IMG/VR virus record: IMGVR_UViG_3300013138_000730
Span: 1-26,523 of that record
Strand: one strand, 5' to 3'
DNA from: a virus
Length of the DNA stretch: 26,523 nt
Below the pieces are notes generated by a model that worked only from the letters and a program-made list of their open reading frames with translations, made no database searches and was not told where the DNA came from. Shown in pieces: positions 3,472-21,817 of the stretch (the stretch's first letter is position 1; each line of letters opens with the position of its first letter). Position numbers and translations under genes: made by a program.

Positions 3472-5442
3472 TTAATCCTGCGCAGTTTGTTGAGAAGCAG
3501 GAGGTTTAGTAGCGGCAGCCGAATTCATTGTTTTTGCGGTCTGATTCTGAGTATTTTCTTTAACTGCTATTCCTTCTATCTTTTTCGTTACCAATCCCTC
3601 ATTTTCCTTGGTGAGGTTAGTCACCTTTTCTTTCAATCCGGCGATAGTCTTGTCCTTTTTGACTGCAATTTCTGCATCCAACCTAGAGCTGATTAGGTTA
3701 GCGTAATTCACGGATGAAACCCAGGTTCCTGTGTAGAACAAAGTTTCAGTTCCATCGATCTTGGAAACAAGGGTAAGCATGAATAGATTGTCCTTTGCCA
3801 TCTGTAAAATCTGCAAAGCGGATTCCTTTGGAATTCTGAACGCTATTTCTCCACGGCTAGGGCTGGTAAGAGATGGATCAACCAACGAGTCGAACGAGTA
3901 CTTCGAGGTTTGACCGAAGTTCAATTTGAAAGTAGATCCGTTGTTCAGGTCGATTCTCTTTTGGTTCGTGGCATCGACCGGATTGGCCTGGTATGCCGTG
4001 AACTTTATGAAATTGTCAACTGGATCGATAGGAAGGACCAATCTGCCTTGGCCGTAAACAACCTTGTCGGTTTCGTTTCCGACCTTATTTAGAGCATTCT
4101 CCTGGCTGAGCATGATGTCCATCTGCTTGATTGGAACGTATTCCTGAACAACGACCTTTTCTGTTATCTTTTCAACCACAGGAATAGGCGGAACTGGAAT
4201 TACTGTTACTTGTGTAGACTTCGGAGCGAACAGGTTAGAAATTTCGAAGTTCTTCTGAACGATCTTGTTGTAGACCTTCATTGATTGAGCGCCGTCCGGT
4301 AAATTGATCTTAGCAAGCTTTTTACCGTACTTGTTTGGGTTTATGACGCTGAGCGAAGCGGTTTTGATTACTTGATCTCCATTAAGAGTGTTGATCAAAC
4401 GTAGGGTGTAATCTATCGACATCGAAACTGCGAATCCTGCTTCCTTGAGAATTGGTCGGTACGTTAGAACTTCGTCGAACTTATCGTCCTGGTAGATTAT
4501 CGCGTTTCCAGTAGGGTAGAGAGTCGATCCTATCTGCTCGTAAACTTGCAGCTGATGAGAGAATATCCAATTCTGATCTGGCCCACTTTCGTTTAGTGAG
4601 GTGATCAGAGCATCCGGAAACGCTCCGTTCCAGGTAGCAAAGAACTGAATGTAATCGCCGTCTGCTGCTTCCGCTATTTGACAGCCGAGAGCGTCGAACT
4701 TATTCACCTGAGCGACTGACCCCTCGTAATAATTGACGAATTTGTACCTGTCGTAGGTTACGTTATTTGGAGCATTGTATTCCTCGTACTGAGCTTCGGC
4801 TAAGAACACCGAAACTGGCGCGTTCTTGATGAATCCTACTCCATTCGTTATTGCGTACTCGAAGGAAGCAGAACTGAACTGCTCGTAATCTGCATCCATC
4901 CATGGAATTGCTGGGATTTTTACGTCGATGTACCTGTCGTAAATCGTATTAGCAATGAATAACGGATGATTGTTGTACGTTAGCAGGCTGAGAGCTGTAG
5001 CTGCGTCCAATAGGATCGTAGCGAGCTGAATCTGCTTGAGGTCGTTCATCTTGTGTTTTGCTCCGACTATGATGTTCTCGATCTCAGTAAAATTGAAACC
5101 TGAAGCAAAATGAAAACGTAAAGTGTCCATCACTAAGTTCGTGCTTAGCGATGGACTCAATGCGGTTTCCGTGATATTTGGGTCGTATGCCGTGTAGATT
5201 GGCACGAGAGTAGTATCGACGTAAATCACCTTTGATCCGCCTAACGATACTACGCTAAGATTCCTTGAGTTATGAGTCGTCTCCGAGAATCCATCGGTAT
5301 TGTAAATCTGTGCCGTACTGACGTTCTTGTTGTCGACCAGGTAAAAGTCGGTGCTCAGTACCGTTGGCGATGGATCTCCGAGCGGGTTAGCTCGGTATTC
5401 CAAGATACAATAGTTAGAAAGATTTACGAAGCTTGAATTCAT
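3472..5442 (-). CDS. Large unknown protein, probably structural
   Basis: A 656-residue protein without recognised motifs. The first 400 or so residues are rich in Asn, Thr, Ser and Tyr with alternating hydrophobic strands, as in many phage virion proteins. Then comes a proline/valine linker (VTVIPVPPIPVVEKIT), a further beta-type domain (about 440-580), and a C-terminal charged heptad stretch beginning near AVKKDKTIAGLKEKVTNLTK that suggests a coiled coil, followed by a disordered Gln/Thr/Pro tail. It starts one base after the stop of the spanin-like gene upstream, so the two are co-transcribed. Virion location is inferred from composition and context only. Confidence 0.7.
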   Translation of the reverse strand: MNSSFVNLSNYCILEYRANPLGDPSPTVLSTDFYLVDNKNVSTAQIYNTDGFSETTHNSRNLSVVSLGGSKVIYVDTTLVPIYTAYDPNITETALSPSLSTNLVMDTLRFHFASGFNFTEIENIIVGAKHKMNDLKQIQLATILLDAATALSLLTYNNHPLFIANTIYDRYIDVKIPAIPWMDADYEQFSSASFEYAITNGVGFIKNAPVSVFLAEAQYEEYNAPNNVTYDRYKFVNYYEGSVAQVNKFDALGCQIAEAADGDYIQFFATWNGAFPDALITSLNESGPDQNWIFSHQLQVYEQIGSTLYPTGNAIIYQDDKFDEVLTYRPILKEAGFAVSMSIDYTLRLINTLNGDQVIKTASLSVINPNKYGKKLAKINLPDGAQSMKVYNKIVQKNFEISNLFAPKSTQVTVIPVPPIPVVEKITEKVVVQEYVPIKQMDIMLSQENALNKVGNETDKVVYGQGRLVLPIDPVDNFIKFTAYQANPVDATNQKRIDLNNGSTFKLNFGQTSKYSFDSLVDPSLTSPSRGEIAFRIPKESALQILQMAKDNLFMLTLVSKIDGTETLFYTGTWVSSVNYANLISSRLDAEIAVKKDKTIAGLKEKVTNLTKENEGLVTKKIEGIAVKENTQNQTAKTMNSAAATKPPASQQTAQD

Positions 5443-12772: not shown

Positions 12773-13411
12773 TCAGAAATATTCGTTAATTTGTTCCCTC
12801 ATGTGCGGGTTATTTTCCAACACTCGGTCTCTTAACATTTTACGAGCCTTTCGTATCTTGGTTTTCACCGTGTTGAGATTCATGTCGTACTTCTCCGCAA
12901 TGTCGTTTCCCCTCATCTGGTTTATCTCTTTATCTATAAGGATGTCCTTTTCGATGCATTCCGGAAGGAAGAACATTTCTGAATGGGTCATTGAGAACAG
13001 TGTGTTCAGGTATTCCTCTCGCTCCAAGTTAGAGCTCGAATTGTCCTCGATGATTGGTGGATGAGTGAGGCTGTCAAGCTTTACAGTGATTTGACTGGTA
13101 ATTTTATGCTTGTGCAGCAGAGCTTCGTTCCTGGCGATGGTGTAGATCCATGTAGTGAAACGATACTCGTGATTGTAAGATTCAAGGCCCTTGAAAATTT
13201 TGAATAACGTGTTGTGTAGGGCTTCTTCTGTTTCGATGCTTGACTCTGGCTGATCTTTGAAAAATTTCCAAATGAAGAATTTAAGCTTCGGGTACATTAT
13301 TGATGCTAACCGATTTCTATCCTTTTCTGTGTAATTTTTGCTATTAATTTTTTCAGCGAGTGCTTGCATTTCATCGTTAAGTTGCTTATTGATTTCATCG
13401 TACGCGTTCAT
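12773..13411 (-). CDS. Sigma-70 family (ECF-like) RNA polymerase sigma factor
   Basis: 212 residues. Region 2 lies at about 36-103, with the core-binding and -10 recognition helix ALHNTLFKIFKGLES (64-78) and the typical YRFTTWIYTIARNEALLH (83-100). A linker with an acidic Ser-rich stretch follows, then region 4 at about 150-197 with a helix-turn-helix NDIAEKYDMNLNTVKTKIRK (169-188). It lacks regions 1 and 3, as in ECF sigma factors. In T4 the late sigma gp55 reads TATAAATA; this protein is the natural candidate to read the AATAAATAA motif repeated through this window (inference). It sits between PhoH and a membrane protein gene, in the same operon. Confidence 0.85.
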   Translation of the reverse strand: MNAYDEINKQLNDEMQALAEKINSKNYTEKDRNRLASIMYPKLKFFIWKFFKDQPESSIETEEALHNTLFKIFKGLESYNHEYRFTTWIYTIARNEALLHKHKITSQITVKLDSLTHPPIIEDNSSSNLEREEYLNTLFSMTHSEMFFLPECIEKDILIDKEINQMRGNDIAEKYDMNLNTVKTKIRKARKMLRDRVLENNPHMREQINEYF

Positions 13412-19761: not shown

Positions 19762-19770
19762 GATAAATAA
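19762..19770 (+). promoter_or_regulatory. Late-promoter-like site GATAAATAA before tmRNA
   Basis: Plus strand GCGATAAATAAATG, 30 bases before the mature tmRNA 5' end. It overlaps the TATAAT element by two bases, so the tmRNA may have two promoters used at different times. Confidence 0.4.
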
Positions 19771-19783
19771 ATGTAGTATAATA
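19769..19783 (+). promoter_or_regulatory. Promoter-like element with TATAAT before tmRNA
   Basis: AAATGTAGTATAATA, identical to the element before the FkbM gene (1573-1587, minus strand). TATAAT at 19777-19782 ends 17 bases before the mature 5' end of the tmRNA, leaving a short leader for RNase P to remove. Confidence 0.5.
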
Positions 19784-19799
19784 CGTAGGAGATTTATCC

Positions 19800-20203
19800 G
19801 GGGGTGAACGGCATTGACGTGAGCGATCGGGTTAAACTTGCATGCCGAGAATGATACCATCTCGCTAACTGTATCAAAACTGTAAGTGGCAACACTACAA
19901 TCTGGGATCTCATCAATGGCACCGCTGTTGCTGAGAGCGTTGACGAGCTAGCACTAGTTGCGTAAACCGTTGGCCGCACTTGCCAACGACCATCGAAGAA
20001 AGGTGCACGTACGGAAAATCGGCAATAGTACCGTTTCGAAACCGTGGAGCCGAAATCATCCACGACAGGTTCGCTGACTGGACCCTAAGTCAGTTCAAAA
20101 AAGAAGGGCAAAGGTTTTGTTGGCTTCGTAAAACCAACTAAGCATGTGAACGAAAGTTTAGTCAAGCACTAAACGGACATGGGTTCGAATCCCATCACCT
20201 CCA
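19800..20203 (+). ncRNA. ssrA: Transfer-messenger RNA (tmRNA), one-piece
   Basis: Phage-encoded tmRNA that would rescue stalled ribosomes and tag the released peptide. The 5' end GGGGGTG pairs with CACCTCC (20196-20202) as the acceptor stem, with A20203 as discriminator; CCA is not encoded (CGG follows). The T arm is ATGGG-TTCGAAT-CCCAT (20179-20195). The 5' domain contains the conserved CTTGCATGCCGAG. The tag frame opens at GGC (19888) just after a TAAGT context, parallel to TAGTC-GCA in E. coli, and closes at TAA 19963-19965. The 404-base length exceeds the usual 360 or so because the tag is long. Downstream bases to 20203 should form pseudoknots, not traced here. It is followed by a terminator and a homing endonuclease. 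Confidence 0.92.
19888..19965 (+). other. tmRNA tag reading frame (25 residues plus stop)
   Basis: The resume codon is GGC (Gly). The tag begins GNTTIWDLINGT, continues AVAESVDE and ends LALVA-stop. The last residues match the ALAA/ALVA signal recognised by ClpXP-type proteases. At 25 residues it is much longer than the usual 8-15, and the IWDLI stretch is hydrophobic. A glycine resume codon is, from memory, typical of Bacteroidota tmRNAs. Confidence 0.8.
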
Positions 20204-20211
20204 CGGGAATG

Positions 20212-20262
20212 AAATGTACCTTAGTCGCAGATATATAAATCTAAAACTGAGGTACATTTTTT
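20212..20262 (+). terminator. tmRNA terminator that also hides the endonuclease ribosome site
   Basis: AAATGTACCTTAG (20212-20224) pairs with CTGAGGTACATTT (20247-20259) as a 13-bp stem with one G-T wobble around a 22-base loop, followed by a T run to 20262. It should end tmRNA transcription. The GAGG ribosome site of the following gene lies in its 3' arm and a TATAAAT promoter-like box lies in its loop. Confidence 0.75.
20234..20240 (+). promoter_or_regulatory. Late promoter TATAAAT in the terminator loop
   Basis: ATATATAAATC, the closest match in the window to the T4 late promoter TATAAATA. A transcript starting about 6-7 bases downstream would lack the 5' arm of the hairpin and leave the ribosome site of the GIY-YIG gene free. 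Confidence 0.6.
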
Positions 20263-20970
20263 ATGCCACGTAAGCAACACACTCACCACTATATCTATCG
20301 AATCACATGTTCTGTTACTGGTAGATATTACATCGGCATGCATTCCACTTCTGATCTCGAAGATAATTACTTGGGAAGTGGTACTCAATTATGGCGATCG
20401 AAAAACAAACACGGTAAGCATACGCATACCAAAGAAATCCTAGAATTTTTACCAGACCGAAAGGCTTTAGCAGATAGAGAACGAGAGATCGTTAACGAAT
20501 CGCTAATTGCTGATCCTATGTGCATGAATTTAATGAAGGGCGGAGAAGCTGGAGGATTTATGAATGAAGAGCATCAACTAAAATGCTCATCTGCCGGCGG
20601 AAGAACCACCAATCCAGAGAAATCGAAGAAGGCCAGCGAAAAGATGAAGGAATCGAATCGCAAAATGATGGAGCAAGGAATTCATCATACTCCTAACTGG
20701 ATAGGTAAACACCATCGACCGGAAATTCGCGAATTGATAGGTGCGAATAGTTCAGTAAAACAGAGAGGTTCTAGAAATTCGCAGTTTGGAACCAGATGGA
20801 TCTCTAATGAAGTTGAGAGTATAAAAGTTAAGGATGAAAATCTCCAAGTGTATCTAAATAATGGTTATCAAATGGGAAGAAAAAAGAAAGTAGTAAAATC
20901 AGAAAGCGACCTAGCAATAGAAAGGGCTTGTGAAATAGCCAGGCAACACCCGGAAGATCCGGGGTTATGA
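20263..20970 (+). CDS. GIY-YIG homing endonuclease (T4 Seg / I-TevI type)
   Basis: A mobile-element nuclease that cuts a target near its own insertion site in phage DNA lacking it. 235 residues: the catalytic GIY-YIG domain at about 9-90, with HYIYRITCSVTGRYYIG (9-25), DNYLGSGT and EREIVNESLIADP; then DNA-binding NUMOD3-like repeats (IGKHHRPEIRELIGANSS, 147-164) and GSRNSQFGTRWISN (168-181), typical of this family. It is free-standing, not intron-borne, directly after the tmRNA. A GAGG ribosome site lies 10 bases before the ATG, inside the terminator hairpin. The stop is followed in the same frame by 25 sense codons that look like the end of another gene. Confidence 0.92.
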   Translation: MPRKQHTHHYIYRITCSVTGRYYIGMHSTSDLEDNYLGSGTQLWRSKNKHGKHTHTKEILEFLPDRKALADREREIVNESLIADPMCMNLMKGGEAGGFMNEEHQLKCSSAGGRTTNPEKSKKASEKMKESNRKMMEQGIHHTPNWIGKHHRPEIRELIGANSSVKQRGSRNSQFGTRWISNEVESIKVKDENLQVYLNNGYQMGRKKKVVKSESDLAIERACEIARQHPEDPGL

Positions 20971-21048
20971 CCTAGTTATACACAAATGACAATGATGGGA
21001 CCCGGCGGTTCTGGAACTTCTGGTACTTCTATGCCAATGAATAAATAA
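20971..21048 (+). pseudogene. Leftover 3' end of a displaced plus-strand gene
   Basis: The frame of the endonuclease continues past its TGA with PSYTQMTMMGPGGSGTSGTS then MPMNK-stop. An ATG at 20986 could make a 20-residue peptide, but the Gly-Ser-Thr linker and lack of a ribosome site look more like the C-terminal end of a virion protein whose body is gone. The tmRNA/endonuclease insertion upstream is the obvious cause (inference). It ends four bases before the gp15-like ATG. Confidence 0.4.
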
Positions 21049-21052
21049 AGGT

Positions 21053-21817
21053 ATGAAAACCTTAAATACAGACGACATTTTTCTCAGGAACCTTTCCATT
21101 TCCTTTCTGGAACTCCTTAATACGACAATGACGATAAGCATGTCGAGAAACGATATGAAAGAAACGTTCTCCGTTCCATTCATGTACAATTACGGAATAG
21201 ACGAGGGTTTCCTAAAGGATTTTTACATTGGTCTCCCTGACAATTGCAATATTCCGGTTGCAGAAGGAACGTATGATATGATCCCAAGGGGAATCATCAC
21301 CCTCAATTCGTTCCAAGTAAAGAACTCCGACATTACGAACCGTTTCATTAGGGGTCAGTACACCGAAACGGAAAGGGGAACTCAAGAAGAGAACGTTCTG
21401 ACCGGTTATTCCGCTCAGCTTTACTCGTTACCTCTCGCAGTCAAGTTCGATGTCAAGGTGATAACCGGAAGCATCAATCAAGCTTTCAAGGTAGCGGAAA
21501 GCATTCTCGATCTCGTGTATTCCAATCGGGTGATGTACTTTCAATACAAGGGAGTACGAATTCCTGCACAGTTCCATTTCCCAGAACAAGAAACGATCGA
21601 TAAGAAGTATGCATTTACTTATTCCGATAACAACAAGCTAAACGTAAATATCCCAGTGGATGTAGAAACGTACTTCCCAAGCTTCGAACAGTCATCGAAG
21701 AGACACAGCAAGAACGTCATGGAAAGAATTCTCGTTAGGGAGTTCGACGAAGAAGGTCATCTGATCAATAAAGTTTGGGTGGATCAGAACACTGCGCCGG
21801 TTCCGCCGGAAGAGTAA
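21053..21817 (+). CDS. Tail sheath stabiliser/completion protein, T4 gp15-like
   Basis: Caps the sheath and joins tail to neck in T4-like phages. 254 residues. The N-terminal DDIFLRNLSISFLELLNTTM followed by SRNDMKETFSVPFMYN (31-46) corresponds to SSFRRYATLMGDLF and KFIRVPITYAS of T4 gp15. The centre has IPRGIITLNSFQVKNSD (like LPRINLHLVDFSYN) and then LPLAVKFDVKVITGSINQAF, like the IYELSIFTRYEDDMFQIVEQ stretch; the C-terminal part has VNIPVDVETYFPSF (like LTFEVNGWMYPP) and a proline-rich end. Length is close to T4 (272). It is on the plus strand, unlike the other structural genes, and converges with the next gene on TAATTA. Confidence 0.65.
   Translation: MKTLNTDDIFLRNLSISFLELLNTTMTISMSRNDMKETFSVPFMYNYGIDEGFLKDFYIGLPDNCNIPVAEGTYDMIPRGIITLNSFQVKNSDITNRFIRGQYTETERGTQEENVLTGYSAQLYSLPLAVKFDVKVITGSINQAFKVAESILDLVYSNRVMYFQYKGVRIPAQFHFPEQETIDKKYAFTYSDNNKLNVNIPVDVETYFPSFEQSSKRHSKNVMERILVREFDEEGHLINKVWVDQNTAPVPPEE

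Follow-up and report, generated by a model that had tools for sequence, protein, structure and literature searches.

Organization of the tmRNA-nuclease region

The analysed stretch of DNA (the window, 26,523 nucleotides) is a 26.5-kb virus fragment of a T4-like phage, which encodes a T4-type terminase, a baseplate wedge protein, PhoH and a sigma-70-family factor. The nearest named terminases, which include those of Sphingomonas phage PAU, Tenacibaculum phages and Prevotella Lak phages, are all less than 60% identical. A DNA search for a close phage record returned only a 54-bp match, under a homing endonuclease gene. The sigma-70-family factor (12773–13411, minus strand; PHROG 1740, E 2.8e-9; Sigma70_r2) is a candidate gp55-like late sigma factor.

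The tmRNA gene, identified by ARAGORN and Rfam (RF00023, 93.7 bits, E 1.3e-35), spans positions 19800–20204 of the plus strand and encodes the tag GNTTIWDLINGTAVAESVDELALVA. On the same strand, a gene for a 235-aa GIY-YIG homing endonuclease of the SegB family follows at 20263–20970 (Pfam PF01541, E 1.5e-6; PHROG 314, 8.1e-33); the GIY-YIG gene of the original prediction is thus confirmed, with its ATG at 20263. Further downstream lies a gp15-like tail sheath stabiliser gene (21053–21817, plus strand), recognised by a Pfam T4-gp15_tss match below the cut-off and by synteny in the related loci L019, L020 and L030. In relatives lacking the nuclease, this gene adjoins the tmRNA gene.

The gp15-like gene has its own late-type promoter, AATAAATAA, at 21040–21048 (plus strand). 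A late-type box is found only about 13–15 nt before the gp15 ATG in the window (21040–21053) and in L014, L016, L019, L020, L030, L031 and L032, so that gp15 mRNA may be leaderless or nearly so. In L014 and L016, the AATAAATAA promoter of gp15 overlaps the last nuclease codons (NK-stop). In the window (20968–21048), an in-frame TGA ends the nuclease ORF earlier, and the frame runs on to the same MNK-stop. In the fetched loci we saw no convincing counterpart of the window nuclease's C-terminal extension (residue 210 or so onwards, with the in-frame stretch past the TGA included).

The nuclease and its tRNA-like neighbours

The window nuclease features both the GIY-YIG catalytic domain and the SegB-like C-terminus (NSQFG.xWI), as found by Pfam, PHROG, BLASTP and alignment, and is 32% identical to T4 SegB over 193 aligned columns (BLASTP, 5e-30). 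Judged by its sequence, it is a relative of SegB rather than of I-TevI. The comparison with I-TevI made in the original prediction is apt for the logic of the switch discussed below, but the closest known system is SegB. The nuclease ATG is located 58 nt 3' of the tmRNA gene, the adjacency to a tRNA or tRNA-like gene that characterises the SegB type.

Relatives of the nuclease were drawn from viral contigs. Of 63 distinct elements, 52 have a tRNA or tmRNA upstream according to ARAGORN, and in 48 of these 52 the RNA gene ends 24–58 nt before the ATG. The upstream tRNAs are of many isotypes, and tmRNA linkage is observed in at least three places of the nuclease tree (the window clade, L063 and L077), with modest support in parts. 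L016/L017, L031 and L032, which belong to the window clade, share the order tmRNA, hairpin, nuclease and gp15; no gp15 gene adjoins the tmRNA cases of L063 and L077.

The T-arm of the window tmRNA contains GTTCGAATC (20183–20191, plus strand), found by pattern search, the reverse complement of which matches RAWTSGAAC. This motif is enriched at T6 SegB cut sites, inside tRNA genes, in a study that describes segB as widely linked to tRNAs and in which tmRNA goes unmentioned (PMC13096335). That RAWTSGAAC would fit tRNA T-arms is our own reading, beyond that study, and the T-arm motif may be the reason why a tmRNA can replace a tRNA as the site. Only 24 of 62 elements have the exact motif in the adjacent T-arm, many of the others being one base off.

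A hairpin covers the start region of the nuclease gene

A hairpin begins 6 nt past the tmRNA gene and stops 2 nt short of the nuclease ATG. Its 5' arm, GAAATGTACCTTAGT, maps to 20211–20225 and its 3' arm, ACTGAGGTACATTTT, to 20246–20260 (both plus strand), the latter spanning positions -17 to -3 of the nuclease gene. A 13-bp stem had been proposed; folding confirms a hairpin here (-24 to -26 kcal/mol; z about -5, ranging from -4.5 to -5.7; none of 200 shuffled sequences as stable) but gives 15 pairs, two of which are G-U (one internal, one terminal).

The effect of the 5' arm was assessed in 59 distinct box-bearing elements. The mean unpaired value of the -12 to +6 region is 0.22 with the 5' arm and 0.69 without it, and in predicted folds the long RNA is less open than the short one in 59/59 elements. 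Among 125 control genes with a similar box, the value goes from 0.50 to 0.67 (difference from the elements, p 2e-17). Shuffling the 5' arm yields 0.49. When 5' arms are swapped between members the value is 0.46, about half of the effect being gone; the element's own arm performs better in 58 of the 59 cases (p 2e-11), indicating that the arms co-evolved. Many two-sided replacements of stem pairs between relatives are also seen in the pair strings. Folding of single elements and arm swapping were used because the MAFFT alignment of the elements has too many gaps in its 3' part to allow pairs to be counted. On read-through RNA, predicted folding occludes the start region, as in a late switch.

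In the window, the -12 to +6 region goes from 0.29 unpaired in the long RNA to 0.52 in the short RNA, a modest opening. The GAGG at 20249–20252 (plus strand), which resembles a Shine-Dalgarno sequence, pairs along its whole length in the long RNA, and the short RNA leaves both it and the AUG mostly paired in a weak fold (-4 kcal/mol). On these predicted folds, the window is not the cleanest member of the element family. The proposal that a promoter within the hairpin would free the nuclease start is supported in its logic by the distinct relatives, the performance of their own arms and the agreement of the box with phage motifs described below, with only this modest opening in the window itself.

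The original prediction also held that the hairpin buries GAGG as the ribosome site. GAGG is present and paired, but its role as a Shine-Dalgarno site is doubtful, since the other genes of the phage show no use of such sites. Strong anti-Shine-Dalgarno matches precede 8% of the window genes, compared with 6% in shuffled sequence and 19% at random positions; in most of the related phages examined, they are similarly scarce before genes and in shuffled sequence. We therefore abandoned the idea that ribosomes use GAGG as their site. Several elements of the family are devoid of any Shine-Dalgarno-like sequence. Given this and the scarce use of such sites, the lock is most likely the double-stranded initiation region: on the predicted folds, the element would hide the whole initiation region and not the Shine-Dalgarno sequence alone.

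A few nt past the tRNA, elements of the family have a TTTTGTACC-like sequence, followed by a box and by a 3' arm that runs up to the ATG. Their sequences vary while the fold persists, and nearly all relatives located beside phage tRNA genes show this hairpin-and-box arrangement. The window retains the TTTTGTACC motif in part only (AAATGTACC). We discarded the notion that TTTTGTACC is shared by non-GIY-YIG genes, as the remaining matches look like chance.

The promoter-like box mostly matches the promoter motif of the same phage

The sequence TATAAAT, originally proposed as a box in the loop, is present at 20234–20240, but a register 4 nt upstream was preferred. The latter, GATATATAA (20230–20238, plus strand), overlaps the apical loop and the helix, scores better and is co-linear with its homologue GATAAATAA in L016, as determined with a promoter matrix and by alignment. 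With the phage's own promoter matrix it ranks 8 of 53,012 positions, while other loop registers rank 105 and 146. The box is one base off the phage consensus (ATATATA for ATAAATA), and the first A of ATATATA is located 32 nt before the nuclease ATG. It also aligns with AATAAATAA, the late-type motif that other genes of the window clade carry, mostly 24–30 nt upstream of the ATG. T4 late-promoter spacing (a start about 13 nt downstream of the first base of the box) places the predicted transcription start near 20243 (plus strand) and not at 20245–20250, as had been proposed; a promoter within the hairpin is itself supported by the box matching described next. Both the placement and the class of the box fit an RNA that lacks the 5' arm and starts at about this predicted position.

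Boxes in the sampled phage contigs fall into three classes, ATAAATA, TATTTAT and ATATATA. Other genes of phages with ATAAATA elements carry 61 ATAAATA motifs against 13 and 2 of the other motifs; the corresponding figures are 85 against 32 and 8 for TATTTAT, and 22 against 5 and 2 for ATATATA. The 3x3 chi-square for box class and promoter class of the same phage is 169, a statistic that ignores phage kinship. The two classes agree in 33 of 37 scorable contigs, compared with a permutation mean of 13.2 (p 5e-5, kinship again ignored). Since ATAAATA and TATTTAT are mutually reverse complementary, divergent genes add noise to these counts. The window, a mixed case, was excluded from the table. There is strong evidence at the sequence level that the box acts as a promoter read by the phage's own machinery. 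We infer late timing from the motif and from the sigma-factor gene: the term rests on comparison with T4 (TATAAATA, gp55; PMC3014915) and on the presence of the motif upstream of baseplate and other virion-type genes.

Proposed termination of the tmRNA transcript

The stem (15 bp, -24 kcal/mol) is followed directly by a T6 run at 20257–20262 (plus strand), the sequence pattern of an intrinsic terminator and a candidate terminator of the tmRNA. A generic terminator scan with a loop limit of 8 did not flag the hairpin, the loop of which is larger. At least five T residues precede the ATG in only 2 of 63 elements, the window and L016 (L017 has the same sequence as L016 here), in which no other tmRNA terminator was seen. 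The original claim that the T run ends the tmRNA transcript is thus plausible on the sequence pattern for the window and L016/L017 only. L031 and L032, members of the same clade with tmRNA, hairpin, nuclease and gp15, lack the T run, and tRNA-linked relatives likewise keep hairpin and box without it. The translation lock would therefore be common to the clade members and termination a feature of some. The terminator appears accessory to the switch, and the tree fits a gain of the T run in two members as well as its loss in the others.

Relatives without the nuclease (L019, L020 and L030) feature the tmRNA gene, an ordinary terminator, a late box and gp15. Ordinary tmRNA terminators (L014, L019, L020, L021, L026 and L030) resemble the window hairpin in having a stem and a T run shortly past the tmRNA gene; in contrast to it, they contain neither a promoter box nor a start codon. 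In L014, L019, L020 and L030, the gene downstream has its own late box, placed after the terminator.

A proposed late-promoter-opened lock and its alternatives

We consider it likely that the sequence 3' of the tmRNA gene is the control region of a SegB-type cassette, a hairpin lock opened by a late promoter and combined here with a terminator. A SegB-type homing endonuclease cassette would have become established 3' of the phage tmRNA gene, the tRNA-like T-arm of which may serve the enzyme for recognition and cutting. RNA reading through from the tmRNA gene would carry both arms, making positions -17 to -3 double-stranded, so that ribosomes could not start. Polymerase with the late-type sigma factor of the phage would initiate at the box within the hairpin, near 20243, and the resulting RNA, having no 5' arm, would be translatable. 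In the window and L016/L017, where a T run follows the stem, the same hairpin would also end tmRNA transcription, replacing the separate terminator of relatives without the nuclease. A broader reading, which in our opinion could hold or fail with equal ease, is that the tmRNA gene is treated as a tRNA target, that one hairpin acts as tmRNA terminator and translation lock and is opened only by the internal promoter, and that the box is retuned to the late motif of each phage, which would fit the cassette to the transcription programme of any phage that it newly enters.

A stem with a T6 run right after a tmRNA gene, at the place where relatives without the nuclease have a terminator, might be nothing but the intrinsic terminator of the tmRNA, with the nuclease start and an AT-rich box beside it by chance. 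This is very unlikely, given that L031 and L032 keep the tmRNA-hairpin-nuclease arrangement and tRNA-linked relatives the hairpin and box, all without a T run, and that box class tracks the promoter class of the phage. If the box is a real promoter, the hairpin might still have a non-translational role, either as a nuclease binding site for autorepression, as I-TevI represses its own late promoter (PMC2988022), or as a site of tRNA or tmRNA processing. Conservation of TTTTGTACC at the 5' end of the element, even where it is unpaired, suggests such a DNA- or protein-binding role. We nevertheless regard this as unlikely to be the main function, because the arms co-vary and pairing ends at the start codon, which would be needless for a binding site alone, and because the window keeps TTTTGTACC only in part. 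A binding or processing role and the switch could coexist.

The site itself may be read differently, in a manner compatible with the late-promoter switch: the nuclease might target the start of gp15, its adjacency to tmRNA being incidental. All members of the window clade are immediately 5' of gp15. The sister nuclease of L014 (57–58% identical), which has no hairpin and sits behind a duplicated gp15 start, is located (4204–5060) between a duplicated gp15 promoter and 5' end, a stub of about 23 matching codons, and an intact gp15. This arrangement resembles the outcome of homing into gp15 in which a duplication restored the start of the gene. Nearly all other relatives, however, are equally close to tRNAs, of which many isotypes are represented, and the tmRNA cases of L063 and L077, elsewhere in the tree, lack an adjoining gp15. 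A gp15 target is possible, if rather doubtful.

Relationship to known systems

Late-promoter hairpins have been described for I-TevI, I-TevII, I-TevIII, segB and mobE; a translation block has been shown for I-TevI and mobE and is implicated for segB (PMC2988022, PMC3014915). In T4, the start of segB lies 41 nt 3' of tRNA-Ile and is accompanied by a hairpin and CATAAATAC; the hairpin and a predicted late promoter have already been described (PMC2988022). SegB of T4 and T6, a homologue of the window nuclease, is a free-standing GIY-YIG protein encoded in the tRNA cluster, 3' of a tRNA, and likewise has a hairpin over the start region and a late-type promoter (PMC2988022). The window differs in that the neighbouring gene is a tmRNA, the box is at the hairpin apex and not in the 5' arm, the hairpin has a T run and the phage uses no Shine-Dalgarno sites.

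In I-TevI of the T4 td intron, the promoter is also within the hairpin, and the start region becomes accessible in late transcripts only (PMC2988022, PMC3014915). Unlike the window nuclease, I-TevI is intron-encoded, resides in a protein gene and not beside a tRNA-like gene, and has no described terminator role. MobE of Aeromonas phage Aeh1 is a free-standing homing endonuclease whose ribosome site is sequestered by a hairpin (PMC2988022), but it belongs to the HNH family and sits in a ribonucleotide reductase gene. The leader of T4 gene e (lysozyme) has a late promoter upstream within an inhibitory structure (PMC3014915); in contrast to the window gene, gene e is a lysis gene and not a mobile element.

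The merger of this logic with a tmRNA terminator had been described as apparently new. The switch logic is known from I-TevI, segB and mobE; the tmRNA site, the merged terminator and the matching of boxes across phages are new. In a literature search mostly confined to freely accessible papers, we found no description of a homing endonuclease beside a phage tmRNA in this arrangement. The analysis extends a control trick of a few T4-type homing endonuclease genes to some 60 distinct loci; of the uncultured phages that carry them, many appear to make no use of Shine-Dalgarno sites. Occlusion of the start region, not of a Shine-Dalgarno sequence, is suggested as the conserved feature. With box class corresponding to phage promoter class, the late-type promoter of an uncultured phage may be read from its SegB element, and the tmRNA cases suggest that tmRNA genes, like tRNA genes, host these elements.

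Variant arrangements

Upstream of the tmRNA genes, in the window (19763–19783) and in L014 to L030, an ATAAATA-like box and TAGTATAATA are found a few nt apart, which suggests two promoters for the tmRNA genes of the clade. TAGTATAATA also occurs at position 1582 of the window (minus strand) and upstream of other genes. In L021 to L026, a 153-aa ORF (MLDVFRKLGDHS...) fills the gap between tmRNA and gp15 instead of the nuclease. The tmRNA-linked nuclease of L077 (505–600) has no visible box, and its start codon belongs to an inverted repeat, TTTTTTGTTCCTTGGCAT/ATGCCAAGGAAAAAAA, that involves the nuclease's own coding sequence. L036 (1197–3420) carries three GIY-YIG copies in tandem, each with its own box element, the cassette having spread locally within one tRNA array.
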